A stretch of 64,000 nt of DNA from Anaerolineae bacterium (GCA_022843385.1 JALHNT010000017.1:1-64000); one strand, 5' to 3'. Shown: positions 8,568 to 52,801, counted from the stretch's first letter. Made by a program: numbers and translations. The notes: a model not told the origin generated them from the letters alone.

Positions 8568-10199
8568 ATGATGAATCATATACCAGAGCATCCGCTGGTG
8601 CTAGTCGCGGATGACGAAATCCCGACGAACAAAATTCTGAGCCGTATCTTTGAACGTGAAGGGTATCGCATCCATACGGCGCAGGACGGCATCGCAGCCC
8701 TGGAGTCTGCACGCAGACTGATCCCAGATCTGATCCTCCTCGACATTCAGATGCCGGGGATGAACGGCTTCGAGGTCCTTCAAGCTTTGCGTGACAATCC
8801 AGCAACCGCCGGCATACCTACCATCATCATCACAGCCAAAGCACGCCAGCCAAATGATATTGCCCGTGGCTTGGATCTAGGTGCAGATGATTTCATGGCT
8901 AAACCATTTGATCCAGGTGAACTCCTGGCACGTGCTCACAGCAAGATTCGTGCGCGAAAGCTGGAAGATGCCCTGCAGCGACGGACACAGGAACTGGAAG
9001 TCTTGTTGCGCGTCAGCGAGGCGCTTAACCAACACATCAGCATCAGCGAATTGTCGCATCTGATTCCTTTTCTGGTTCTCGACCTGCTGCCGGGCAATAT
9101 GGCAGCTATCTATATCACCGACGAACACGAAATGTTCATTCCGCAGCAAGTTGAATTCAAGAATATTGCCTCAAAAGGTCAGCACCTCGATCATGATACC
9201 GTAATTCAACGCTTCACCTATTACCATCGGCCGATGCTCTGGCCGTCAATCCACCCACCGCTTCTGGATGACTATGCGTATGGGATGGCAGTGCCATTAC
9301 AACATAGCGAGCATTTGCTGGGCATGCTGATGCTGGTATCAAATGAACATCCTTACGACGAGAACCATCTCCGACTTTTCGAAGGAATTGGTCGACAGTC
9401 TGCCCTGGCAATCAAAAACACACAGTTATACGAAATCCAGCTCAATTATTCGCTACATCTGGAAGAAATGGTCGAAGCCAAAACAGCAGAGTTGAAATCC
9501 ACACAGCAGATGTTGATCCGTGCCGAGAAACTGGCCTCTATCGGCCACTTGGCATCCAGCATTGCTCATGAAATCAACAATCCCCTCCAGCCCATCAAAA
9601 TCGTTCTAGAGGACATGATGGAGGATCTGCAAAACGGACTCCCAGTGGATATACGTGCTATCCAGATAACGCAGGAAAACGTGGAGCGAATCCGTCGAAT
9701 CGTCAACCAGTTGCTCGATTTTGCCGGAAAACGCAGCAACAATACGACAGAATTTCAGCTTATTGATCTTGGGAACATCATTGAGGATGTAGTGAGCTTG
9801 AATCGCAAGCTATTCGACAAGCAGAATATGCGAATTACTACTGAGCTTTATGCACCACTACGCACCTATGGGAACAAGGATCAGCTTAACCAGGTGTTGA
9901 TGAATCTCATCCTGAATGCTCAGGCGGCCATGGAGACAGGGGGTAATCTGCTCATTCGCGCCTGGGTTGATCGGAACGAAATCATCCTCGAGGTAAGCGA
10001 TACTGGCAGCGGCATTGCACCGGAGAACCTCAACAAGATATTTGACCCTTTTTTTTCAACCAAACAGAATGGAACAGGGCTGGGTCTGTTTGTCACATAT
10101 GGGATCATCCAGGGTCATCATGGAACAATCGAAGTCAAAAGTAAACCCAATGTAGGAACTACATTTACCATTCGGCTTCCTGCTCAACAAGCGATGTAA
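8568..10199 (+). CDS. Hybrid sensor: receiver, GAF and histidine kinase
   Basis: A 543-residue cytoplasmic signalling protein. Residues ~8-125 are a receiver domain with phospho-acceptor Asp59 in LILLDIQMPG and the conserved Lys in FMAKPFDPGE. A GAF-like domain (~145-295) follows, then a coiled coil and a HisKA region with phospho-acceptor His334 in SIAHEINNPLQP. The HATPase domain carries an N box (LILNAQAAM), G1 (DTGSGIAPENL) and G2 (GTGLGLFVTYGII). This order lets a receiver gate the attached kinase. No membrane segment is present, so the stimulus is intracellular or comes from another kinase. There is no partner regulator beside it. The gene is divergent from ctpA and convergent with the TPR membrane protein gene. 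Confidence 0.9.
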   Translation: MMNHIPEHPLVLVADDEIPTNKILSRIFEREGYRIHTAQDGIAALESARRLIPDLILLDIQMPGMNGFEVLQALRDNPATAGIPTIIITAKARQPNDIARGLDLGADDFMAKPFDPGELLARAHSKIRARKLEDALQRRTQELEVLLRVSEALNQHISISELSHLIPFLVLDLLPGNMAAIYITDEHEMFIPQQVEFKNIASKGQHLDHDTVIQRFTYYHRPMLWPSIHPPLLDDYAYGMAVPLQHSEHLLGMLMLVSNEHPYDENHLRLFEGIGRQSALAIKNTQLYEIQLNYSLHLEEMVEAKTAELKSTQQMLIRAEKLASIGHLASSIAHEINNPLQPIKIVLEDMMEDLQNGLPVDIRAIQITQENVERIRRIVNQLLDFAGKRSNNTTEFQLIDLGNIIEDVVSLNRKLFDKQNMRITTELYAPLRTYGNKDQLNQVLMNLILNAQAAMETGGNLLIRAWVDRNEIILEVSDTGSGIAPENLNKIFDPFFSTKQNGTGLGLFVTYGIIQGHHGTIEVKSKPNVGTTFTIRLPAQQAM

Positions 10200-40242: not shown

Positions 40243-40698
40243 ATGGGCTATTACCTGCGCTACTTCATGGCGGACACCCGCCCTATCCAACTTCAGCAGA
40301 TCAAGGATAGGTTCGAGAGCCTCGACCCAGCCTATGGGCTGGAACCGGACATCGTGGATGATCTGGGGCGTTTGACCTACAACGGTAAGCTGATCGCCCT
40401 GATCGAGATCAACCGGGCAGGCGAAGAGATCTTTGATGATGATCTGGACGAGTTCAAAGCCCTGATCGGAACGCCGACCACTGAGGCCGAGCATCGGGTA
40501 TATGCACATCTGACTGATGCAACAGCCATCATCGCCGTTGAGGCCTTTTGGAAAGAAGCCGACATGGAGGACACATTATCGCGTATTGATCCGCTCTGGG
40601 AGTGGTTATTCAGCCAACGCGCCGGCATCCTTCAGGCCGATGGCGAGGGATTTTATGACCCGCATGGTCTGATTGTAGAGCGACGATCCGTCCTGTAA
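40243..40698 (+). CDS. Small protein of unknown function
   Basis: A 151-residue soluble acidic protein starting four bases after the M42 peptidase. It begins with MGYYLRYFMADTRPIQLQQI and is alpha/beta in character (LIALIEINRAGEEIFDDDLD; AIIAVEAFWKEADMED). I see no known motif. Coupling to the peptidase gene suggests a related role. It is convergent with, and abuts, the P460-type cytochrome gene. Confidence 0.78.
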   Translation: MGYYLRYFMADTRPIQLQQIKDRFESLDPAYGLEPDIVDDLGRLTYNGKLIALIEINRAGEEIFDDDLDEFKALIGTPTTEAEHRVYAHLTDATAIIAVEAFWKEADMEDTLSRIDPLWEWLFSQRAGILQADGEGFYDPHGLIVERRSVL

Positions 40699-41322
40699 TC
40701 AGTCGCAGGGTGTGCGCCCAGTCTGTTCACACAAATAGACTTGCAAATCACCTGAACGTCGATAACTCGCCAGCAGCGGGGCGGTATACAGAAAATCCTG
40801 CGGTGCCACCTGATGGCAGTTGAAGCAGGCATTCAGGCTCTCAGCAAATGGTTCACCCGTCAGTCGATCAAATGACCCGTAATTCCAGGCACCATTGCGT
40901 AGATCACTCACAAAATCGGTATCCGACCAATCACGACGTTTCTCCCGGACGTGCAGCGCTGGAAAAGGTTCCCCAATCTGATAGCGCCCCTCAGCATCGA
41001 GTATCGGCGCACCGGTTTCATCTTTGAGCGCATAAAAGCCTTCGATGACGATCATAGTACCATCCGGGAGAACATCCGAGACGCCTAAGTTTTCCAGCGC
41101 TTCAGGGTTGATATACAGATAACGAATGGTCGCATCCGGTCGTTGGATGACAGCATAACGGACGAAGCGAGTCCTGAAGTCGGAACCGAGTGTCATGCCG
41201 CTAGCCGAAGCAGCAGCCGGCTCTTCATCATCAACCATTGAACTAAGCAGTAACGGGAAACCGATAACTGCCAGAACGGTCAGGATTGATAGAATGAGGG
41301 TGAAGGGTGATCGTCTGGTCAT
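40699..41322 (-). CDS. Cytochrome P460-type heme protein, membrane-anchored
   Basis: A 207-residue protein from ATG 41322; an in-frame extension upstream has poor character. A signal anchor (FTLILSILTVLAVIGFPLLL, ~6-25) exports it. The core matches the cytochrome P460 domain family (TMIVIEGFYALKDETGAPIL, then FPALHVREKRRDW), and a single c-type heme site C-F-N-C-H lies at 166-170. The family includes hydroxylamine- or NO-converting and electron-transfer heme proteins; the activity here is unknown. It is the last gene before the repeat-rich right flank. Confidence 0.85.
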   Translation of the reverse strand: MTRRSPFTLILSILTVLAVIGFPLLLSSMVDDEEPAAASASGMTLGSDFRTRFVRYAVIQRPDATIRYLYINPEALENLGVSDVLPDGTMIVIEGFYALKDETGAPILDAEGRYQIGEPFPALHVREKRRDWSDTDFVSDLRNGAWNYGSFDRLTGEPFAESLNACFNCHQVAPQDFLYTAPLLASYRRSGDLQVYLCEQTGRTPCD

Positions 41323-41385
41323 AGCCACAGTCTCAGCCAATATGATTACCCAAGTATAACAGCCTGTCGTCATCAAGATGCCAAG

Positions 41386-41474
41386 AAAGAAGAAGAATTG
41401 AACCACAGAGAACACAGAGGACACAGAGAGCAATCAGAGGTCTTTTCCTTTTAACTTTGCACTTTGCACTTTCC
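41386..41474 (+). repeat. ACACAGAG-rich direct repeat, copy 1
   Basis: The core CACAGAGGACACAGAGAGC plus AATCAGAG is shared exactly with copy 2, and both copies share a preceding AAAGAAGAA stretch and a following CTTT/GCACTT-rich tail. It is non-coding. Confidence 0.85.
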
Positions 41475-41749
41475 TGCGTTGATTCGTCAGATTCGCATCA
41501 CTCTATTTTTCGATTCGCGAATCCGTCATCCGAAAGCGTCTTCAGGGTTTTGTGCTGCTGATTGACCATCCCCCCCTTTGCTGCTGATTTTGCTGATTGG
41601 TGCCACCAACTGAAGAATGTAATGAGGTAATTTTCCCTCATGCGGTACAGAATCAGCCGGTGTTATCACTGGCATTGGACACCTTTTTGTGCAACTTTGG
41701 CTCTGTATCGTTGTCGGAAAGACACACAATTTCGCCACCAATCCCGTCA

Positions 41750-41843
41750 GGAACAAAAGAAGAACCGACCACAGCGACACAGAGGACACAGAGAGCAATC
41801 AGAGCCTTTCACTTTCAACTTGGCACTCAGCACTTAGCACTTC
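41750..41843 (+). repeat. ACACAGAG-rich direct repeat, copy 2
   Basis: This copy lies 364 bases downstream of copy 1 in the same orientation. The tail reads CACTTTCAACTTGGCACTC where copy 1 has a CTTTTAACTTTGCACTTTG variant. Short elements of this kind probably recur elsewhere in the genome. Confidence 0.85.
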
Positions 41844-41968
41844 CGCTCTGCCGCCGGCGGATCGGCCTTGGTGGTGGCATAACGACGGGAGCGATCCGCC
41901 ACCCGCTGCATTGACGCGGAGCAAACATGGGCTTGAACCACAGAGGCGCGGAGGACAGAGAGCGAAAT

Positions 41969-42149
41969 CTGCGAAATGTCGTCAATGTCAGTTCTCGATT
42001 GTGTGACATTTGGCAGTCAGTCAGTAACGGGTAACGAGCTACGAGCAACGAGTCTTTCCTCTCATAACGGACGACTTCTTGCCCTCAGCATACGCCCGAT
42101 TGCCCCGTTACGGGTGAACTTTTGGTAAACTTTTTGGTACGAGTTAAGC
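41969..42149 (-). repeat. Right copy of the long inverted repeat
   Basis: Read on the minus strand from 42149 it matches 26012-26201 from end to end: an 80-base first part with one mismatch, then scattered mismatches and a nine-base deletion before the shared TTTCGCAG end. Similarity stops at both edges, so the element is about 181-190 bases long. The two copies bracket roughly 15.8 kb. Confidence 0.93.
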
Positions 42150-42275
42150 TGAGTCGGCGTTAACGAATTTGAGGGAGGGGAAACGTATCAGATGTTCATC
42201 AGTGGTTGGAAAACGGTTAACGAAATCAGCACTTGAGGGAGCGCAAAATCGCCCTATCTTTTCACATGAGAATGT

Positions 42276-42305
42276 TTGCGCAGCGGGTCAGGTGCCTTAT
42301 ACAAT
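42276..42305 (+). promoter_or_regulatory. Possible promoter of the pullulanase gene
   Basis: TTGCGC (42276-42281) is followed after 18 bases by TACAAT (42300-42305), about 150 bases before the ATG. The -10 is good and the -35 weak, so the call is tentative. Confidence 0.35.
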
Positions 42306-42458
42306 CCAAATGTTGTTTTTGCTATAGAGGGCTTTCGCGCTTGAAGGGTTAGCAAATCCTAATCTTTGCCTGTTCTTGCCTGTTTATCAGGTCCTAAGCC
42401 TGCGCTCAACTGCATAAGCCCTGAAGTTTTTAAAGTAAGTCAACTTGCTGGAGGGATA

Positions 42459-45400
42459 ATGACTCTTAAGAAGAGCTTGATCGCGCTGATGTCGTTGCTG
42501 TTGTGCATCGGTTTCGTCGTCGTCGCCAGCGATGATACGACACAGCCCACCCTGGTGGTGATCGCCGGTTCATTCCAGGCCAGCCTGGGTTGTGATGAGG
42601 ATTGGCAGCCGGGATGCGAGGCGACCGCGCTGGTTTATGACGCTGAGGATGATGTCTGGCAGGCGAGCTTTGAACTGGCGGCCGGCGATTATGAGTATAA
42701 AGCCGCGCTCAATGGGACATGGGATGAGAATTATGGGGCGAATGCGGCTGCCGGGGGTGACAACATTTCGCTGTCGCTGACTGAAGCAGCGGTAGTCCAA
42801 TTCTTCTACGATCACAAGACCCATTGGGTGACAGACGATGTCAATTCGACCATCATCGTGGCGATTGGCGACTTCCAGAGTGAGCTGGGCTGCGACGAGG
42901 ATGATGCGCCCGACTGCCTGCGCTCCTGGTTGCAGGATGAAGATGGTAACGGCGTCTACAGCTTCGCTACAACGGCGATACCGGTTGGCAATTATGCCGC
43001 ACGGGTGGCGCTGAACCAGTCGATGGACGAAGTATACGGTGCAGGTGGAGAGTTGAATGGCGATCCCATTGCCTTTGAAGTCCCAACCGAGGGCATGAAG
43101 ACAACTATCGGCTTCAGCCCATCGCGCCAACTGCTGAACGTGCGCGTGAGCGACCCCGCTCAGGTGGCTGCGCCGGCTGTTCAACCAACAGCGGTGGTTG
43201 AGCGCCTGACCGGTCTGTTCGTCACCGCGCCGGGGAGTTACCAGAGCGAAATCGGCTGCCCGGAAGACCTGGGGGCTAGCGGCGACTGGGCACCGGATTG
43301 TAATCTGTCGTTGATGACCGATGACGATAGCGACGGCATCTACATGATTACGCTTGCCTCGATTCCGGCGGGCGATTATGAAGTCAAGGTGGCGATTGGC
43401 GGAAGCTGGTCGGAGAACTATGGGGCCGATGGCGCACGCGACGGGGCCAACATCCCCTTCACGGTGCCGGTGGATTTCGCGCAGGTGGTCTTGGCCTGGG
43501 ATTCGGCGACGCGCATCCTGGCGATAACAATAGATGGCTCGGTCATCGGTGCACCGTCTGCTGCCAGCGGATCAGTTCCGATTGTCGTGCCGGTCGCCGC
43601 AGAGGCGCAGCCCGATCAAGTGGTCATTCCTGGCACCCTTCAGAGCGTGCTGGGATGTGAGGGGGACTGGCAGCCGGATTGTGCTGCTACTGCGTTGACC
43701 TTCTCCGAAGAAGACGGCATCTGGCAAGGCGCATTTGATATTCCTGCCGGGAGCTATGAGTATAAGGTGGCGATCAATGGCACCTGGGATGAGAATTATG
43801 GTGGCAATGCTGATGCGGGCGGCCCGAATATAGTCCTGAATCTGGCTGAAGATACCACCGTTCGTTTCTACTACGACCACACCACGCACTGGGTAGCCGA
43901 TAGCAGTCGCAATGTCATCGCCACCGCCCCCGGCAGCTTCCAGGATGAAATCGGCTGCCCTGGCGACTGGCAACCCGACTGCCTGCGCTCGTGGCTACAA
44001 GACCCGGATGGAGATGGTCTATACGTATTCGCCACCGATGCGATACCGGCTGGCGATTATGAAGTCAAGGTTGCGCTCAATGAAAGCTGGACAGATAACT
44101 ATGGACTGGATGGCGTCAAGGATGGCCCGAATATCCCCTTCACGGTACCAGAAGATGGAACGCCGGTGGCCTTGGTCTACAACACATCGAGCAACATCAT
44201 GCTGGTCGGCGTGGGGACGATGCCGATGACCGGCCCGGTGGCGGTGACGCCTGATCTGAGCAGTCAGAGGGCCTACTGGGTGACGCGCGATACGATTGCC
44301 TGGGACATCGCCGTTCCTGAAGGCGCGACGGCCAAACTCTACTATGCGCCGGAAGCGGGCATGACCGGCGACGCCAGCGGTTTCGCCGACGGCACCGCAA
44401 TTGACCTGACATGGGACGAGAATGGCCTGAGCGATGAGGTTGTGCAGCGCTTCCCCCATCTGGCTGGTTACACGGCCTTCAGGATCGGCGCGGACAGTCT
44501 CGACCTGGTGCCGGGACTGGTGCGGATGCAAGTGGGGATCGCGCTGCTCGATGCCAATGGTCAGGCGTTGGACGGCACCGGGCTGCAAATTCCAGGCGTC
44601 CTGGATGATCTCTTCCGCTATGAGGGCGAGCTGGGCATCAGCTTCACCGACGGAGTCCCCACCCTCCGCGTCTGGGCACCCACTGCCCAGCGGGTACGGC
44701 TGCGGCTGTTCGACAATGCCAATCCTGATGCCCAACCGGAAACGGTTCGGATGGACTTTGACCGCGCGACCGGTGTTTGGAGCGTGACCGGTGACGCCAG
44801 TTGGGTCGGTAAATTCTATCTGTACGACGTGCGGGTTTATGCCCCCAGCACGCAGCGGATTGAAAACAATCTGGTGACTGATCCATACTCGATCAGCCTG
44901 GCGCTGAACAGCACCCGCAGCCAGATTGTTGATCTGAATGATCCGGCCTATATGCCGGACGGCTGGCTGGAGTTGGAAAAGCCAGCGCTGGCGGCACCGG
45001 AAGACATCGTGCTGTACGAGCTGCATGTGCGCGATTTCAGCATTACCGATGAAACAGTTCCTGAAGCCTTGCGCGGGACATTCAAGGCCTTCACGGTCAC
45101 CGACTCAAACGGGATGCAACATCTGACCGCGTTGGCTCAGGCAGGGTTGACCCACATTCATCTGCTGCCAGCGTTTGACATCGCCACCATCAACGAGGAC
45201 GCCAGCCAGCGCACCGAACCGGACGCAGCAGCGCTGGCCGCCCTGCCCCCTGACTCGGAAGAACAGCAAGCCATCATCGACCCCATCCGTGATCTGGATG
45301 GCTTCAACTGGGGTTATGATCCATATCACTTCAACGTGCCGGAAGGCAGCTATTCGACTGATCCCAACGGACCCACGCGCGTTCTGGAATTCCGCGAGAT

Positions 45401-46877
45401 GGTGCAGGCGCTCAGTCAGGCCGGGCTGCGAGTGGTGATGGATGTGGTGTACAACCACACCAACGCCAGCGGGCAGAGTGATCGCTCGGTGCTGGATAAG
45501 ATTGTCCCAGGCTACTATCACCGCCTGAATGGACGAGGCAAGGTCGAGACCAGCACGTGCTGCCAGAACACAGCCACCGAGCATTACATGATGGAACGGC
45601 TGATGATCGACTCAGTGGTGTTGTGGGCGACGGCCTACAAGGTCGATGGCTATCGCTTCGACCTGATGGGACATCACATGCGGGCCAACATGGAAAATGT
45701 CCGCGCTGCGCTCGATGGTCTGACGCCTGAAGCCGATGGGGTTGATGGGTCACAGATTTATGTCTATGGCGAAGGCTGGAACTTTGGTGAGGTACAGGAC
45801 AATGCGCGCGGCGTGAATGCCACTCAGCTCAACATGGGCGGGACGGGCATCGGCACCTTCAATGATCGGCTGCGTGATGCGGTGCGCGGTGGCAGTCCAT
45901 TCGGCGGCTGGCAGGATCAAGGCTTCGCTGCTGGTCTGTATGTCGATCCCAACGGATTGACGCAGGGTACGCCGGAAGAACAACTGGCGCGAATCCGGTT
46001 GTTCCAGGATCAGATCCGGGTGGGACTGGCTGGTAATCTGCGCGATTACACTTTCATGGGAGCTAATGGCGAGATGGTAACGGGCAGCGAGGTGCTGTAC
46101 AACGGCTCGCCAGCCGGCTACACCCTCGACCCGCAGGAACATATCATCTATATCTCAGCGCATGACAATGAGACGATCTTCGACGCTATCCAGATGAAAG
46201 CGCCCGCTACGGCCAGCATCGCCGAACGTGCACGCATGATTCAACTGGGCAATGCCGTTGTCATGTTCAGCCAGGGCATCCCCTTCTTCCATGCCGGCGA
46301 TGAACTGCTGCGCTCGAAATCAGGCGACCGCAACAGCTATAACTCCGGCGACTGGTTCAACCGGTTGGATTTCACCTACAGCAGCAACAACTGGGGCGTT
46401 GGACTGCCACCGGCAGGAGCGAATCGGGAAAACTATGAGATTCTCCAACCCCTGCTGGCAAATCCAGATCTGATACCGACGCCAGAAGTCATCACCGCTA
46501 CGCTAAATGTCTTCCGTGAGCAGTTACAAATTCGTAAGGACTCGCCGTTGTTCCGTCTGCAAACGGCAGAAGCGGTGCAGCAACGAGTCAGTTTCCTCAA
46601 CACGGGGGTCGATCAGCAGCCGGGTTTGATTGTGATGGTGCTGGCTGATGACGGTGATCTGGCTGATCTTGACCCGAAATACGAGAAAATCGTGGTCATT
46701 TTCAATGCGTCGCCTGAGGCAATCGAGTTCAGTGACGCGATGCTGAATGATGGCACCTATATCCTGCATCCGATCCTGAGCGAGTCGAGTGACCCGATTG
46801 TTCGGTCGGCCAGCTTTGGCGATGGCATCTTTAGCGTACCGGGCCGCAGTTATGCCGTCTTCGTGATGCCGCAGTAA
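42459..46877 (+). CDS. Large secreted pullulanase (GH13) with five N-terminal modules
   Basis: A 1472-residue exported alpha-1,6-glucan hydrolase. ATG 42459 follows GGAGGG. The signal peptide is SLIALMSLLLCIGFVVVAS. Five related ~90-residue modules of the starch-binding X25 kind come next (about 34-120, 125-225, 240-350, 370-455, 460-560), each with a G-D/S-F-Q-x-E-L/I-G-C-x-x-D start and an A-L-N/I-G-x-W-x-E-N-Y-G end. A pullulanase N-domain and CBM48 (TLRVWAPTAQRVRLRLF) lead into the GH13 barrel: VVMDVVYNHTN (~991), nucleophile Asp about 1068 in VDGYRFDLMGHH, acid Glu about 1104 in YGEGWNF, and YISAHDNET (~1234). YNWGYDP of type I pullulanases appears as FNWGYDPYHFNVPEG. It likely degrades pullulan or branched starch outside the cell. 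Confidence 0.94.
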   Translation: MTLKKSLIALMSLLLCIGFVVVASDDTTQPTLVVIAGSFQASLGCDEDWQPGCEATALVYDAEDDVWQASFELAAGDYEYKAALNGTWDENYGANAAAGGDNISLSLTEAAVVQFFYDHKTHWVTDDVNSTIIVAIGDFQSELGCDEDDAPDCLRSWLQDEDGNGVYSFATTAIPVGNYAARVALNQSMDEVYGAGGELNGDPIAFEVPTEGMKTTIGFSPSRQLLNVRVSDPAQVAAPAVQPTAVVERLTGLFVTAPGSYQSEIGCPEDLGASGDWAPDCNLSLMTDDDSDGIYMITLASIPAGDYEVKVAIGGSWSENYGADGARDGANIPFTVPVDFAQVVLAWDSATRILAITIDGSVIGAPSAASGSVPIVVPVAAEAQPDQVVIPGTLQSVLGCEGDWQPDCAATALTFSEEDGIWQGAFDIPAGSYEYKVAINGTWDENYGGNADAGGPNIVLNLAEDTTVRFYYDHTTHWVADSSRNVIATAPGSFQDEIGCPGDWQPDCLRSWLQDPDGDGLYVFATDAIPAGDYEVKVALNESWTDNYGLDGVKDGPNIPFTVPEDGTPVALVYNTSSNIMLVGVGTMPMTGPVAVTPDLSSQRAYWVTRDTIAWDIAVPEGATAKLYYAPEAGMTGDASGFADGTAIDLTWDENGLSDEVVQRFPHLAGYTAFRIGADSLDLVPGLVRMQVGIALLDANGQALDGTGLQIPGVLDDLFRYEGELGISFTDGVPTLRVWAPTAQRVRLRLFDNANPDAQPETVRMDFDRATGVWSVTGDASWVGKFYLYDVRVYAPSTQRIENNLVTDPYSISLALNSTRSQIVDLNDPAYMPDGWLELEKPALAAPEDIVLYELHVRDFSITDETVPEALRGTFKAFTVTDSNGMQHLTALAQAGLTHIHLLPAFDIATINEDASQRTEPDAAALAALPPDSEEQQAIIDPIRDLDGFNWGYDPYHFNVPEGSYSTDPNGPTRVLEFREMVQALSQAGLRVVMDVVYNHTNASGQSDRSVLDKIVPGYYHRLNGRGKVETSTCCQNTATEHYMMERLMIDSVVLWATAYKVDGYRFDLMGHHMRANMENVRAALDGLTPEADGVDGSQIYVYGEGWNFGEVQDNARGVNATQLNMGGTGIGTFNDRLRDAVRGGSPFGGWQDQGFAAGLYVDPNGLTQGTPEEQLARIRLFQDQIRVGLAGNLRDYTFMGANGEMVTGSEVLYNGSPAGYTLDPQEHIIYISAHDNETIFDAIQMKAPATASIAERARMIQLGNAVVMFSQGIPFFHAGDELLRSKSGDRNSYNSGDWFNRLDFTYSSNNWGVGLPPAGANRENYEILQPLLANPDLIPTPEVITATLNVFREQLQIRKDSPLFRLQTAEAVQQRVSFLNTGVDQQPGLIVMVLADDGDLADLDPKYEKIVVIFNASPEAIEFSDAMLNDGTYILHPILSESSDPIVRSASFGDGIFSVPGRSYAVFVMPQ

Positions 46878-46894
46878 AGTAAATCCATTCACTT

Positions 46895-46926
46895 GAGGGA
46901 GAACCTGACGATCAGGGTTCTCCCTC
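46895..46926. terminator. Hairpin terminator after pullulanase
   Basis: The 11-base arms GAGGGAGAACC (46895-46905) and GGTTCTCCCTC (46916-46926) pair perfectly around ten bases. No T run follows at once, so strength is uncertain, but the site 18 bases after the stop fits a terminator. Confidence 0.65.
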
Positions 46927-47014
46927 ATCCATCATGAAAGCACAGATTTTTCAATTTTCGCATATAATGTCACAGCAAAAGTATGTGTAGTATGAAGGAT
47001 CACACAACTCTGTT

Positions 47015-47032
47015 ATGGGAAACTTTTCCCAT
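47015..47032. promoter_or_regulatory. Perfect palindrome upstream of the TIR operon (possible operator)
   Basis: ATGGGAAA and TTTCCCAT flank two central bases, giving a perfect 8+2+8 inverted repeat. It lies 62 bases before the first TIR start, between two TATAAT boxes (46963-46968 and 47044-47049), and would overlap the -35 area of the second. This is where a dimeric repressor would be expected. Confidence 0.5.
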
Positions 47033-47094
47033 GTAAACACTTATATAATTAGTTGTAACTATTGAAGCGATCAGCATTCAACATACCTAAACTG

Positions 47095-50000
47095 ATGACA
47101 GCATCGTTCGTGTGGCTTAGCTACCATAATTTTGATTTGGAACGCGCCCTTGCGATTTCAGGACACCTGCAATCGGAAGGCGTTCAGATTGTCTTTGATT
47201 ACTTCCAGACCAACAAACAGCCTGATGCGGTCATCAATGCCCTCCAGCAAGCCGATGGATTCATCGCGCTCTTCAGCCCGGCCTACTTACAATCCCCCTA
47301 TTGCAGACAGGAGTTAGAAGAGGCGCACAACCGGAACATTCCCATCTATCCGATTTTGCTTGAACCGATCAGTCTGGAATTGTGGCCGACCGGCCTGAGC
47401 CTGTCTTCGCCATTTGATTTCTCGTATGAAAACACCCTCGCCGACGCCTGGCGAGCATTGAAACAGGCGATCCGCGACAACAATGCCGAAGCTATCAACC
47501 CCGCACTTCCCCCTATCGCTGAATCGGTCTATGACATCATTCGTCGGTTCAATATCACCGACAATCTGCTGTACCACCTGGAAGTCGTTAACCTGGAACA
47601 GACGGTGCATCAGTATCGCCCGATCCTGACCCAATCCCAGGAATACCTGGTTCAGGATCGGTTCATGCCCATCCGACAAGCGGGAGCCTATCAGGGACGA
47701 AACACATCGCTGCGACTGATGGACCTCTTCGACAAGTATCAGCGATTGGTCATTTGTGGTAACCATGCTTCGGCGTATCTTGGACAACTTGGGGCATCTA
47801 TCGCCCGCAAGCATGTTGAGCTGGCGGGAGCTTATCCGCAACCATACTGGGTGGATTGCGCGGTGCTGGATGAAGATGGACTGAGCGTCGATCATTTCAT
47901 CGACCTTATTCGCCAGCAGGCTGCACACATCGCCAGAGAAGCCATCGTGCTTCTGGATCATATTGACAGCTTATGGCAGCGCACAGATCGTAACGCGCTC
48001 TTGCAAGAAATCGTCGCGCTCATCCCCTCCGGCTGCCGGGTTGTATGTGCGAGCCAGCAGCCTTCGCTCATCCCACTCGGCTTCGAACAATGTACGTTGG
48101 ATACAGCAGCCATAGAACGTGAGCTATCCCAGGAGCAGGAATCGGCCGCCGCAAACCAATTGTGGACGCAAACCCGCACGGTCTGGATACAGTCGCGCAA
48201 TCCGGTATTGGCACAGGCCAGCTACCTCGTCCAGGCTGATCCGCCAATCGCCAGTCTATCAGCCTTCATCCAATTGCTGACTGAGCGGATGCAGCAGAAG
48301 ATTGGTCTGAACAGCCGATTCAGCGGAATTTCGCCGGCAACGCTACAGCGTCTATTGATAAAGGCCGCCAAGTATTGCGCATTTTCAGCCGATGCTCATC
48401 GGATTGCGCGTGTACGTGGCCATGTTCAGGATGAGCCGGTTCTGGCAGCCGCCATCGCCACCGGACTCCTGAATGTACGAAATGGGCAACTTCGCTTTAT
48501 CGATTCCACCATTCAGGCTCATTACCTGAACCAGGCGCTGGACGAAGAAGCGCTGATCGAACAGATCAGGCCACCAGCTATTCACAATCATCAGCAACGG
48601 TTGACGCAGATCTGGGATGAGGCTATTCATCTCCTGACGCAAGCAGCGGCACACAAGGATCATCTGCTGATCCAGGTAGCCGAAAAAGACCCTTATCTGG
48701 CACTGGAATGCGTGACTCGTGGCGCAGCGGTCACTGCTTCAACCTATAGCGTCGTGATGCAGCATACCCTTCACCAACTGCGCGAAGGCGGCGATAACCG
48801 TTTGGTGCTGGCAAACAGCCTCATCGAAATCGACGCCCCCTCAGCACAGGCGCTTTTGCTGGAGGTGGCCCGTAATGCTGCCTGGGGACTCCGTCTCCTT
48901 GCAACTGATCGCATAATCGAACTCGGCATCGATTGTTCGCCAGGCCTTGAAGAAGCGCTGCAACATCCAGAGGTGTTCGCCGGCGAGGAACGCTTCGCCA
49001 CACTCTGGAATATGGCACAAGCTTCGCTGCCCGCCCTGCTGCGCGAACTGCGGGAAGGCAATACCCAGAGAAGGCGAACCGCGGCCTGGATACTGGGTGA
49101 ATTGCGCGATAAGGCAGCGGTGCCGGCACTCGTCGCCACGATTTCAGATAACCACCGGGATGTTGCTATCACGGCACTCCAGGCTGTCAGCAAAATCGAG
49201 CAACTGCCCAATGCGATTGAGCCGGCTCGAACGAATGCTCCCTCACTGGATGTCTTAAGTCGGGTGGCTCAAACGGCAACTCAACCGGATGGTACCGATA
49301 TTCAGGTGGATGCTATTTTTTTCAATGCGCTTAAGCGTCTGATACCCGATTTACCGGAAGCGCTGTTACTTCAACTCTCTTATCACTCGAATGCGGATGT
49401 ACGTAGTGTTGCGATTGAAGGATTGAGGAATCATATGATGAGTCCTAACGTGGTACAACGCCTAGCTGAAGCCATCACCGATTACGCGAAATCGCGCTGG
49501 TCCAAGAAGAGTATCGCTGAGATTGCCAGCATGGCGGTTGCCAATAAGCCCGAAAAAGTGGATGCATCCGCATCGGCAACGCTGGGTAAGGAACGGCTGC
49601 TGAAAGTTCGGACCAGCACAACGGAAGCGATTGCCGTGATGGCAGAGGAATCAACAGCAATACCCGTCCCATCCAACCCGGCGCCACATCTGAATGGCAG
49701 AATTCAGGAAGAATTTCAGCGCATACTCCGTGAGATACGACATCACCGCTGGACTGATACCAATGGTAGACTGGGAAATGTGCGCGCCCTAATTCAGGAT
49801 GTTCCAGACAGCGACACAGCCGATCTTGTGCCGCATATCCTTACCGGTACACGCGATGAAAACTGGATCGTGCGGTGGGCATGTGTCGAGAGTCTGGGGT
49901 TACTCAAGGATAACCGAGCCATTGAGGCGGCCCTCAACAGCCTGAAGGATCAGCAATGGCAGGTGCGAGTCGCTGCCATTCGGGCGCTGGAAGAGATGAA

Positions 50001-50472
50001 TAACAGCAATGCCGCGCCGCACATTGCGCTGGCGCTGGCGGACGATAATCAGGTGGTACGCGAAGCCGCGGCTGAAGCGCTGGGGCGATGCAGCGATGAG
50101 AAAAGCATTCCGTATCTGATGAACGCGGCTGTCGCCGACGAGCCGTTTGTGCGTATCGCAGCGGTAGAAGCGCTGGGCAATATCAAGGCACCCGCCGCGC
50201 AAATGGCGCTCATCACTGCCCTGCAAGACCCCAGCGATCATGTGCGTTGGGCGGCGATCAATGCCCTGGTTGAAACCGCAACCCCGGCAATGGTAGGGGC
50301 ATTGAGCCGAAGTCTGAGCGATACCGGTGGTCCATACTGGGAGCAGAAGCGGATTTGCGATGTTGCGGCAGCGATTCTGGAAAAACTTGGCAGCTATGAA
50401 GCTCAGGCTGTTTTGAATGTTTGGAAAAACAGAGCGGTTGAACCGACTCTACACTCAGCAGGACCAGTGTAA
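47095..50472 (+). CDS. TIR domain protein with degenerate NTPase region and HEAT repeats
   Basis: An 1125-residue protein. ATG 47095 is chosen (a TTG at 47062 is in frame); neither has a clear ribosome site. Residues ~4-140 are a TIR domain: SFVWLSYHNFDLERALAISG, ADGFIALFSPAYLQSPYCRQ and ELEEAHNRNIPIYPILL, with the conserved TIR Glu after the Cys. A NACHT-like region (~190-330) keeps a Walker-B-like IVLLDHIDSL, but the P-loop position reads ICGNHASAYLGQLG without G-K-S/T. Helical HEAT-type repeats follow (~650-720; ~905-1110, e.g. WQVRVAAIRALEEMNNSNAA, VREAAAEALGRCSDEKSIPY). TIR domains can cleave NAD or make signalling nucleotides; HEAT repeats bind partners. It begins the TIR pair and is two bases from the second gene. 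Confidence 0.88.
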   Translation: MTASFVWLSYHNFDLERALAISGHLQSEGVQIVFDYFQTNKQPDAVINALQQADGFIALFSPAYLQSPYCRQELEEAHNRNIPIYPILLEPISLELWPTGLSLSSPFDFSYENTLADAWRALKQAIRDNNAEAINPALPPIAESVYDIIRRFNITDNLLYHLEVVNLEQTVHQYRPILTQSQEYLVQDRFMPIRQAGAYQGRNTSLRLMDLFDKYQRLVICGNHASAYLGQLGASIARKHVELAGAYPQPYWVDCAVLDEDGLSVDHFIDLIRQQAAHIAREAIVLLDHIDSLWQRTDRNALLQEIVALIPSGCRVVCASQQPSLIPLGFEQCTLDTAAIERELSQEQESAAANQLWTQTRTVWIQSRNPVLAQASYLVQADPPIASLSAFIQLLTERMQQKIGLNSRFSGISPATLQRLLIKAAKYCAFSADAHRIARVRGHVQDEPVLAAAIATGLLNVRNGQLRFIDSTIQAHYLNQALDEEALIEQIRPPAIHNHQQRLTQIWDEAIHLLTQAAAHKDHLLIQVAEKDPYLALECVTRGAAVTASTYSVVMQHTLHQLREGGDNRLVLANSLIEIDAPSAQALLLEVARNAAWGLRLLATDRIIELGIDCSPGLEEALQHPEVFAGEERFATLWNMAQASLPALLRELREGNTQRRRTAAWILGELRDKAAVPALVATISDNHRDVAITALQAVSKIEQLPNAIEPARTNAPSLDVLSRVAQTATQPDGTDIQVDAIFFNALKRLIPDLPEALLLQLSYHSNADVRSVAIEGLRNHMMSPNVVQRLAEAITDYAKSRWSKKSIAEIASMAVANKPEKVDASASATLGKERLLKVRTSTTEAIAVMAEESTAIPVPSNPAPHLNGRIQEEFQRILREIRHHRWTDTNGRLGNVRALIQDVPDSDTADLVPHILTGTRDENWIVRWACVESLGLLKDNRAIEAALNSLKDQQWQVRVAAIRALEEMNNSNAAPHIALALADDNQVVREAAAEALGRCSDEKSIPYLMNAAVADEPFVRIAAVEALGNIKAPAAQMALITALQDPSDHVRWAAINALVETATPAMVGALSRSLSDTGGPYWEQKRICDVAAAILEKLGSYEAQAVLNVWKNRAVEPTLHSAGPV

Positions 50473-50474
50473 CA

Positions 50475-52058
50475 ATGCGTATATTTGTCAGTTATGCCCG
50501 GGTGGACAAACCCTATTGTATTCAGATTGTCGATACCGTTGATGTGCATGAAACGTGGTACGACCAGCGTTTGTATGCTGGACAGAATTGGTGGAAGGAG
50601 ATCCTGCGCCGTCTCGACTGGTGCGATGGATTCATCTACCTCCTATCGCCTGATTCGATGGGATCGGAGTATTGCCGCAAGGAATTTGAACTGGCACAAA
50701 GCCTGGGCAAACATATCTTCCCGGTGTTGATTCGAGAACGCACAACACTGCCCGAAGCGTTGAAGGGACTACAGTATGTTGATTTCACCGAAGGGATCAC
50801 CCCGGATGGTGTGAAGTCACTGCTGAATTCAATTTATATTGCTGAACGGAATAAGCAACCCACGCTCCCGGTTTCCCAGATTGAGTCAGAAAAGATCGCC
50901 CTGCCCACCGTTAATCCAGCCAACGTCATCAGCGTGGCAGCCGGTTCGATGGAAAATGGACAATTTGACCAGGCTGTTTATTTACTCAAACAGGCTAAAG
51001 AAAGCGGATACAATTCACGCTTCATCAATATCGATGCCCTGCTGGCCGAGGCTGAAGCAGCCCTGGATCGATTGACCTATCTGCGCGAAGCCGAGCGCGA
51101 ATACAAACAGATTGCAGATCTCGTCAAACATAGCATGACGCGACGGCTAGGGTTGGAGGCGTTCAAGGCCTTCCGCAAGGATTTCCCCGATTACGACCCA
51201 GACGGACTGGAAAAGCTCCTCTCCAATGCTGCAGAAGTTGTGGTGCAACCAGCGTCCATCATCATCCCTGCCGTGGCGGCACCACCGCCGGCACCCAGCT
51301 TCAATGTGCCGATGTTGGAGTGGTGCGATGTACCGGCGGGGATTGTGATCGTCGAAGAAACTGAAAAAGAAGCCAGCGTTGCTCCGCGCAAGTTCTCGGT
51401 CGAGACTTTCCGCATTAGCAAGTTTCCCATCACACACGCGCAATACGACATCTTCCGCGATGACGGGGATGGCTATGCCAATACCCAGTGGTGGGAGTAT
51501 TCACCCGAAGCCTATAACTGGCGCATGAACAATCCGGAACCCAAAGCGGGGCGCTTCAAGGGGGAAGAACGCCCACGCGAGATGGTGAACTGGTACGATG
51601 CGGTTGCCTTCTGCCTGTGGCTTTCGACCAAATACAAAACCCAGATCACGCTGCCAACCGCACTCCAATGGCAGCGAGCCGCACGTGGCGACGACAATCG
51701 GCTGTATCCCTGGGGTAGCGAGTTTGATCGGAGCCGCTGCAACACACGTGAGAGCGAAATCAAGATGACATCGCTGGTCATGCGGTATAACAACGGAATC
51801 AGTCCGTACAACGTGTATGATATGGCTGGCAATGTATGGGAGTGGTGCCTGAACACCAAGCCAAAAGTCAATGGAACGACGCCATCGACGAATGGGGTGG
51901 GCCGAAGCTCAATCGAGATTGCAACAATGGGAGAACGGGCTGTATTTGGTGGATCATTCGTGAGCGCTTATCAACGCTCACAGATTCCATTTCACTACTA
52001 TCTGGATCCGTTGTGTTACCACGCCACGATTGGGTTCAGGATCGTACAGAAGACTTAG
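50475..52058 (+). CDS. TIR domain fused to FGE-sulfatase (C-type-lectin-like) domain
   Basis: A 527-residue soluble protein. Residues 1-125 are a TIR domain: MRIFVSYARVDKPYC, CDGFIYLLSPDSMGSEYCRK and EFELAQSLGKHIFPVLI, retaining the conserved Glu. A helical linker (~150-255; MENGQFDQAVYLLKQAKESG, ALEAFKAFRKDFPDYDP-like) follows. Residues ~280-527 are an FGE-sulfatase domain: FRISKFPITHAQYDIF, PREMVNWYDAVAFCLWL, LPTALQWQRAARG, YDMAGNVWEWC and VFGGSFVSAY with the closing IGFRIV. The paired catalytic Cys of true formylglycine enzymes is not evident, so a binding role is likelier. It follows the TIR-HEAT gene by two bases and ends seven bases before tRNA-Glu. Confidence 0.9.
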   Translation: MRIFVSYARVDKPYCIQIVDTVDVHETWYDQRLYAGQNWWKEILRRLDWCDGFIYLLSPDSMGSEYCRKEFELAQSLGKHIFPVLIRERTTLPEALKGLQYVDFTEGITPDGVKSLLNSIYIAERNKQPTLPVSQIESEKIALPTVNPANVISVAAGSMENGQFDQAVYLLKQAKESGYNSRFINIDALLAEAEAALDRLTYLREAEREYKQIADLVKHSMTRRLGLEAFKAFRKDFPDYDPDGLEKLLSNAAEVVVQPASIIIPAVAAPPPAPSFNVPMLEWCDVPAGIVIVEETEKEASVAPRKFSVETFRISKFPITHAQYDIFRDDGDGYANTQWWEYSPEAYNWRMNNPEPKAGRFKGEERPREMVNWYDAVAFCLWLSTKYKTQITLPTALQWQRAARGDDNRLYPWGSEFDRSRCNTRESEIKMTSLVMRYNNGISPYNVYDMAGNVWEWCLNTKPKVNGTTPSTNGVGRSSIEIATMGERAVFGGSFVSAYQRSQIPFHYYLDPLCYHATIGFRIVQKT

Positions 52059-52064
52059 CGAGGA

Positions 52065-52137
52065 TGCCCCATAGGAGATTCGAACTCCTGTTTTAGCCTT
52101 GAGAGGGCTACGTCCTAGGCCTCTAGACGAATGGGGC
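52065..52137 (-). tRNA. tRNA-Glu (anticodon CTC)
   Basis: The minus strand folds into a 73-base tRNA: acceptor stem GCCCCAT/ATGGGGC, anticodon stem TAGCC/GGCTA with loop CTCTCAA (anticodon CTC), and T-arm AGGAG/CTCCT around TTCGAAT. The discriminator is A (52065) and CCA is not encoded. It converges on the TIR-FGE gene. Confidence 0.95.
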
Positions 52138-52151
52138 TAGAAGCTAGGTTG

Positions 52152-52180
52152 ATTGTAACGGGAAGGCATAACCTGGTCAA
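52152..52180 (-). promoter_or_regulatory. Sigma-70 promoter of tRNA-Glu
   Basis: On the minus strand TTGACC (52180-52175) is followed after 17 bases by TACAAT (52157-52152), 14 bases before the tRNA 5' end. Confidence 0.82.
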
Positions 52181-52205
52181 GTATCATCTGACGTTGTCAC
52201 AATCC

Positions 52206-52234
52206 TTGTCAGCGACCGATTTTCGCCTTACAAT
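52206..52234 (+). promoter_or_regulatory. Sigma-70 promoter of the MglA-like GTPase gene
   Basis: TTGTCA (52206-52211) and TACAAT (52229-52234) are separated by 17 bases and lie 39 bases before the ATG at 52274, which has GGGGAGG upstream. Confidence 0.78.
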
Positions 52235-52273
52235 CTCTTCATATCTACACGATTGGGATATGGGGAGGTTGGT

Positions 52274-52801
52274 ATGTCTTCGTTCAAGATTGTTGTGACC
52301 GGCCCCTTCAATTCCGGCAAAACACAGTTCATCAAGACCATTTCCGACATCCCTGTGGTTTCCACCGAAAAAAAAATCACCACCGAAGATCGCGGCATTA
52401 AGGCCGAGACCACGGTGGCGATGGATTACGGTCGGTTGATACTCGATGGCGATACGCTGTTCTTGTACGGCACACCTGGGCAGGCACGCTTCGATTTCAT
52501 GTGGGAAATCCTCTCCGATGAAATGGATGGATTTCTCGTCCTGGTGGACAGCACCGATATCCACTCATTTGCAGAAGTGGCCGCCATGGCCGAGACCTTC
52601 TCCCAGTTTCAGGATGTTCCGCATCTGATCGTCTCAAACAAGACTGACTTACCCAACGCCGCCAAGTTATCCGATGTTCGGCGCGGCACCCATGCCAGTG
52701 GAAATGTCACAGTCATGCCGTGTGTTGCCACACAAAAGTCCAGTGTGCGGCAGGTCTTGCTGCAAATCGTGGAGCTCATGAAGAACCAGCCCGCCACCTG
52801 A
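52274..52801 (+). CDS. Small Ras-like GTPase (MglA/ARF type)
   Basis: A 175-residue GTPase from ATG 52274 with GGGGAGG just upstream. G1 is GPFNSGKT (~10-17), G3 is YGTPGQARFDFMW, and G4 is NKTD. The GTPG (not DTAG) form of G3 is common in bacterial MglA-like proteins. These act as spatial or signalling switches with roadblock/LC7 partners as regulators. A matching roadblock protein is encoded 2.9 kb away on the other strand (55683-56054). Confidence 0.9.
   Translation: MSSFKIVVTGPFNSGKTQFIKTISDIPVVSTEKKITTEDRGIKAETTVAMDYGRLILDGDTLFLYGTPGQARFDFMWEILSDEMDGFLVLVDSTDIHSFAEVAAMAETFSQFQDVPHLIVSNKTDLPNAAKLSDVRRGTHASGNVTVMPCVATQKSSVRQVLLQIVELMKNQPAT

Follow-up and report, generated by a model that had tools for sequence, protein, structure and literature searches.

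The 64,000-nucleotide stretch analysed here (the window), from an Anaerolineae bacterium, contains two genes for TIR proteins in immediate succession. The question raised by this locus is whether the two proteins form a unit and, if they do, what the unit serves; the original prediction was a paired sensor-effector design of bacterial defence or signalling. The 7.85-Mb source genome (GCA_022843385.1, Chloroflexota) has 57 TIR_2 and 17 NACHT matches, so that a single TIR gene is unremarkable there and conservation of the pair becomes the real question.

Both genes lie on the plus strand. Gene A, coding for a TIR domain, a degenerate NACHT-type NTPase domain and HEAT repeats, ends at 50472 and begins either with a TTG at 47062, from which its 1136 amino acids are counted, or with an ATG at 47095, which fits as well because the relatives begin near the TIR domain. 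Gene B (50475 to 52058, 527 amino acids) codes for a TIR domain, a helical linker and an FGE/C-type-lectin-like domain. ORF calling in the window found both frames long and intact, arranged head to tail with A first, and separated, as predicted, by only two bases between the TAA of A and the ATG of B. Directly downstream, a tRNA-Glu(CTC) gene occupies 52065 to 52137 of the minus strand, its 3′ end 7 nt from the stop of B. Beyond the tRNA, nucleotides 52253 to 52801 encode a small Ras/Arf-like GTPase of 182 amino acids. Directly upstream of the pair, a very long pullulanase-type protein (42366 to 46877, 1503 amino acids) has five copies of the X25 domain, encoded by diverged direct repeats.

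Domains and folds of A and B

In A, Pfam recognizes a TIR_2 domain (47110 to 47430; 50.6 bits against a cut-off of 28) and HEAT_2 repeats (136 bits). The presumed catalytic glutamate is residue 84, within the motif YCRQEL (47299-47316), and the DRLDxxPGDDW loop usual in the family (the BB-loop motif) is lost from the TIR domain of the window copy. The C-terminal HEAT solenoid, residues about 878-1126 (49693 to 50439), is the best-conserved section of A in the whole family. Between the TIR domain and the solenoid the window copy has no Pfam NACHT match and no Walker A: the degenerate site at 47749-47784 reads VICGNHASAYLG, without GK[ST], and is followed by the Walker-B-like IVLLDHID (47944-47967). 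A search of the PDB with the N-terminal 463 amino acids returned weak TIR matches only, the best of them to RPS4 (E 0.076).

The fold of this region was examined in an AlphaFold model of A (mean pLDDT 79). In VIA structure matching, modelled residues 150-579 (47509 to 48798) have a NOD2/NLRP-like NACHT fold; the match to NOD2 (5irn) has a Z score of 17.9, with 358 residues aligned at 4.7 Å, and NLRP9 and NLRP3 match as well, the three scores lying between 16 and 18 and the Z exceeding the level that the tool cautions about for helical models. The NACHT match came from VIA; Foldseek with the whole model returned HEAT-type solenoids only, among the matches listed. The region thus remains a NACHT module by fold, in which the nucleotide-binding loop is lost.

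The majority of A relatives retain the complete TIR-NACHT-HEAT architecture. The intact relatives L137 and L166, for instance, have TIR_2, NACHT above the Pfam cut-off and HEAT, and the Walker motifs of intact relatives read, for example, GGPGSGKTT (A) and LFLDGLNE (B). At the family level the STAND/NACHT layout is therefore present: an N-terminal effector, a NACHT module and C-terminal repeats. Judged by these homologues, A is shown to descend from an intact TIR-NACHT-HEAT receptor. The term NACHT-like, used for A in the original prediction, holds for its descent and its modelled fold; it does not hold for the window copy in the stricter sense of a Walker A and a Pfam match.

In protein B, the TIR_2 domain (50475 to 50822, found by Pfam at 70.9 bits and in the model) has the motif YCRKEF (50670-50687) with Glu70, so that each of the two TIR proteins keeps the glutamate, as had been claimed. 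A helical, TPR-like linker domain follows (50916 to 51260); elsewhere in the source genome it occurs only in a paralogue, B2, plus two other frames that match weakly. The FGE-sulfatase/C-type-lectin-like domain (51306 to 52049) was found by Pfam with 120.8 bits (cut-off 23.3) and in the model (pLDDT 89), and HEAT repeats in A and an FGE domain in B were thus both identified as expected. The modelled TIR domain matches the SPARTA TIR (8i87) with a Z score of 17.6, SPARTA TIRs being the TIR entries among the matches listed. The FGE part matches TvpA, PvdO, EgtB and FGE with Z scores of 22-26, TvpA reaching 26.

The catalytic cysteines of FGE (GGSxxCxxxxC) are absent from nearly all members of the B family (0/53 at the first site and 2/53 at the second). 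In the window copy the segment reads GGSFVSAYQRS (51948-51980), and no invariant histidine was found in the FGE domain across the family. An FGE/EgtB-type enzyme role for B was rejected on the missing cysteines and the lack of an invariant histidine. On this evidence the FGE domain of B is probably a binding domain and not an enzyme, in line with the original view of a fold suited to ligand binding.

Pairing of A and B and divergence of A

A search of 61 relatives found B homologues beside A homologues in many of them, and 78 loci came from scanning the GTDB species genomes for the B family. In 57 pairs, the window's included, A immediately precedes B in the same orientation; in 26 of these the two genes overlap by exactly 4 nt, a sign of coupled translation. 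A is also upstream in L149, where the gene caller missed B. Where the upstream side of a B1 gene could be assessed, a codirectional A immediately precedes it in 58 of 59 cases; the sole exception (L172) is a second copy in an assembly, UBA6055, that also carries a pair (L161). The recurrence of the pair across tens of species is beyond chance, and co-occurrence in other genomes, which the original prediction had named as a check, was found.

The pairwise distances of A and B are correlated with r = 0.90 over 51 pairs, the maximum of 2000 permutations being 0.26. At the level of sequence these comparisons demonstrate that A and B are inherited and evolve together, and we regard the pair as ancient. 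They do so at different rates, B being the slower-evolving and A the faster-evolving partner. The TIR glutamate is kept in 54/54 B proteins and in 47/53 A proteins, and Walker A in 45/53 A proteins.

Non-paired B genes belong almost entirely (20/22) to one weakly supported group, B2. As a rule B2 genes stand in divergent orientation beside conserved genes for glycosyltransferases, ParA and a solute-binding protein; across the order the locus contains three glycosyltransferases, ParA and an SBP_bac_3 protein. The source genome has such a gene at G000:C10:113172-114677 (L126 9173-10684), which encodes a TIR-linker-FGE protein and has no A beside it. The role of B2 may be non-defensive. An extended arrangement was seen in one family of the order, where L099 and L100 (169-11879) have four TIR genes in a row, in the order TIR-nSTAND/AAA (664 amino acids), TIR-ATPase (1083 amino acids), A and B.

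By their B proteins, the window, L133, L134, L169 and L176 make up one clade. Within it, the window, L133, L134 and L176 share 70-95% identity in the domains of B; for the TIR and NACHT parts of A the values are 19-28% and 10-18%. The A proteins of this clade were scored with leave-out profiles derived from A proteins outside it. All five scored low with the TIR profile (30-82 bits versus a median of 153 for the others) and with the NACHT profile (11-90 bits versus 206, the window copy giving 10.9 bits), and 235-284 bits versus 303 with the C-terminal HEAT profile. All five frames are open over 1136-1175 amino acids, with no stop. This erosion of the TIR-NACHT half of A in the window clade, with the C-terminal HEAT of A and all of B conserved, goes beyond the original prediction. 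We read it as relaxed or changed selection on the switch and the TIR domain of A, the role of the C-terminal HEAT presumably being conserved. In the window lineage, A has ceased to be an ordinary ATP-switch receptor. Changes of Walker A also occur outside this clade, in L163, L167 and L208, which read GSGIT, GSGGT and GSGRT, respectively, with loss of the P-loop.

Genomic distribution and possible function

The B family is present in 88 of 154 genomes of the order, a count that includes B2 paralogues, so that genomes with the full pair are somewhat fewer. Among 400 genomes drawn from the phylum, two had a B-family match at E 1e-60, the genome of the window being one of the two; as far as these searches reach, the family appears essentially confined to one order. 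In genus g17 it was found in 34/34 genomes among those listed, nearly always in single copy, a distribution that looks like that of a core locus and not of a mobile defence cassette; 46 genomes of the order that gave no match fall outside this listing. Among the 89 flanking proteins scanned, the frequent families are ABC transporters, response regulators, oxygenases and enzymes of metabolism; NACHT, nSTAND and defence-model matches occur a few times. The junction between B and tRNA-Glu(CTC) is common to the window and L176 (tRNA at 9629-9701). Integration of a mobile element at tRNA-Glu was considered and rejected: no direct repeat matching the 3′ end of the tRNA was found in 40600-52300, and the shared gene order in L176 also opposes it. 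In these lineages the pair has a stable place on the chromosome and does not form a typical defence island; the patchy distribution among defence genes that characterizes anti-phage islands was not observed.

The reading that we favour, with a probability of about 0.52, is that the pair is a translationally linked, NLR-like module of two TIR proteins, B acting as the NAD+-cleaving executor and A as its regulator or scaffold, with NAD+ loss or an ADP-ribose-type signal as the output. The FGE domain of B and the HEAT solenoid of A would bind a ligand and each other, and ligand bound by either of them would lead to assembly of the TIR domains and switch B on. The TIR domain of B is the candidate executor because its glutamate is kept in every member and B evolves more slowly than A. 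In the window lineage A, having no Walker A and having lost much of its TIR signature, would most likely act on B as scaffold or regulator through its C-terminal HEAT, a division of roles akin to that of sensor and executor in some paired plant NLRs. The output would most likely bring about cell death or dormancy on invasion. Catalysis, contact between A and B, and the immune role are what we infer; conservation by itself suggests the direction of control, from A to B. A defence role is plausible.

Several observations speak against this explanation. Core-like presence in g17 and mostly metabolic neighbours are unusual for a defence system, B2 has no A beside it, and in G027 what comes after an A-type gene, close to the end of the contig, is not B. 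The sensor-effector pair originally envisaged is well supported as a two-protein design by the near-obligate pairing and the co-evolution; a use in anti-phage defence is opposed by the core-like distribution, the metabolic neighbours and the occurrence of B2 alone in a stable glycosyltransferase locus. The pair might instead be a housekeeping signalling module concerned with the cell envelope, nutrient or developmental state and not with immunity. The FGE domain would then read a metabolite or glycan of the cell itself, and the assembly of TIR domains or the turnover of NAD would provide a mild regulatory signal. Such a module would suit the near-constant single copy in g17, the transporters, regulators and metabolic enzymes alongside, the B-tRNA-Glu synteny of the window and L176, and the conserved glycosyltransferase/ParA/SBP_bac_3 locus of B2. 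We nevertheless consider it rather unlikely: A has NLR architecture, evolves fast and is eroded in its N-terminal half in one clade, all of which is more usual for conflict proteins, and the numbers of TIR and NACHT matches in the genome are typical of immune-gene expansion.

The state of A in the window could also mean that A is a decaying relic in this species, persisting through its operon linkage or serving as a simple chaperone, and that B alone works. Loss of Walker A and of the BB-loop motif agrees with decay, as does the very low NACHT score. However, a true relic would lose both its open frame and its HEAT scores, and the five clade species keep full-length frames and C-terminal HEAT scores in the normal range of the family, which makes decay improbable. 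Even less credible is a catalytic FGE domain, engaged in sulfatase maturation or sulfoxide synthesis, with the TIR domains as mere protein-protein scaffolds. It would account for the high Pfam score and for the fold matches to FGE and EgtB, but it conflicts with the loss of the cysteines, the lack of an invariant histidine and the invariant TIR glutamate of B, and we regard it as very improbable.

Relation to known systems

A known PADLOC system was rejected, as the matches cover only TIR or HEAT fragments. The TIR domains with their NADase glutamate are like those of Thoeris ThsB and SPARTA TIR-APAZ, and PADLOC ThsB models match the TIR domain of B weakly. With Pfam, no SIR2 or SLOG domain of Thoeris ThsA and no Ago or APAZ domain of SPARTA/short pAgo was found in A, B or the four neighbours tested. 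Bacterial TIR/STAND defence NTPases of the Avs and bNACHT type combine an N-terminal effector, a STAND/NACHT switch and C-terminal repeats, a layout shared by the intact relatives of A. Unlike these NTPases, A has a near-obligate second TIR protein as partner, lacks the P-loop in the window copy and is core-like in one genus.

In plants, the paired TNLs RPS4/RRS1 are encoded by adjacent genes and both have TIR domains; one partner is the executor, and an extra integrated domain serves recognition (PMC5435354, PMC4246468). Both plant partners are NLRs, whereas here A alone is NLR-like and B has a lectin-like domain instead. We regard the likeness as a functional analogy only and claim no homology of the pair. 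A bolder version of our favoured reading makes the bacterial pair a core, vertically inherited counterpart of the plant paired TIR-NLRs, in which the NLR half has repeatedly been freed of the ATP switch, and of TIR catalysis as well, and regulates a strictly conserved TIR-lectin executor; this we hold to be unlikely in its full form. TIR and NACHT proteins connect the immunity of bacteria, plants and animals, and the bacterial ones are usually treated as mobile cassettes. If the bolder version were true, a whole bacterial order would have here a fixed locus of innate immunity and not a mobile defence cassette. An order-wide pair with a natural series from intact to switch-less NLR halves and a fixed partner would allow a direct test of the sensing versus the killing half. 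It would also show whether bacteria and plants evolved the division between sensor and executor independently.

The literature search for a pair with TIR, FGE and HEAT found only papers on conflict systems (PMC7159879, PMC8195603, PMC10907252) and, among the papers searched, no named system; together with the partial PADLOC matches this agrees with the original statement that exactly this pair has no name. In the FGS-centred systems (eLife 2021, PMC8195603), STAND NTPase, FGS and TIR are split between neighbouring genes, with one adaptor domain common to the partners; FGS was proposed as an intracellular invader sensor, and the systems are enriched in multicellular bacteria. The present pair likewise divides a STAND NTPase, TIR and an FGE/FGS lectin-like domain between neighbouring genes. 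In those systems, however, FGS is fused to the NTPase and bDLD3 or EAD is shared. In the present pair FGS sits on the partner without the NTPase, TIR is the domain that the two proteins share, the NTPase protein has HEAT repeats at its end, and there is no linked DGR. No EAD/bDLD adaptor was matched by Pfam in A or B, and the linker domain of B was assigned to no family, although fast-evolving death-like domains can escape detection. Within the broad FGS/FGE-STAND-TIR kind to which it belongs, the pair stands apart by the way its domains are distributed, by a TIR domain in each partner, by the absence of a linked DGR and by its core-like presence in g17.

DGR-diversified FGE antigen sensors have been tied to NACHT and TIR proteins (PNAS 2024, PMC10907252), and the combination of an FGE domain of C-type-lectin fold with STAND/NACHT and TIR components is common to them and to the pair. 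Unlike in those sensors, no reverse transcriptase was found on contig C17, which carries the pair, and the C-terminal tail of the FGE domain, the part that varies in DGR-diversified domains, hardly differs among four species. On these two results B does not look hypermutated, and DGR diversification was rejected; an FGE domain that has no catalytic cysteines and is not hypervariable likewise goes beyond the original prediction. Elsewhere in the source genome, at G000:C15:101166-104188, a reverse transcriptase lies about 330 nt from a 1265-amino-acid frame in which NACHT and FGE occur together; this is probably a NACHT-FGE sensor diversified by a DGR. At G000:C3:52364-54286, reverse transcriptase and TIR domains are both assigned to frames of 875 amino acids, apparently a single RT-TIR fusion.
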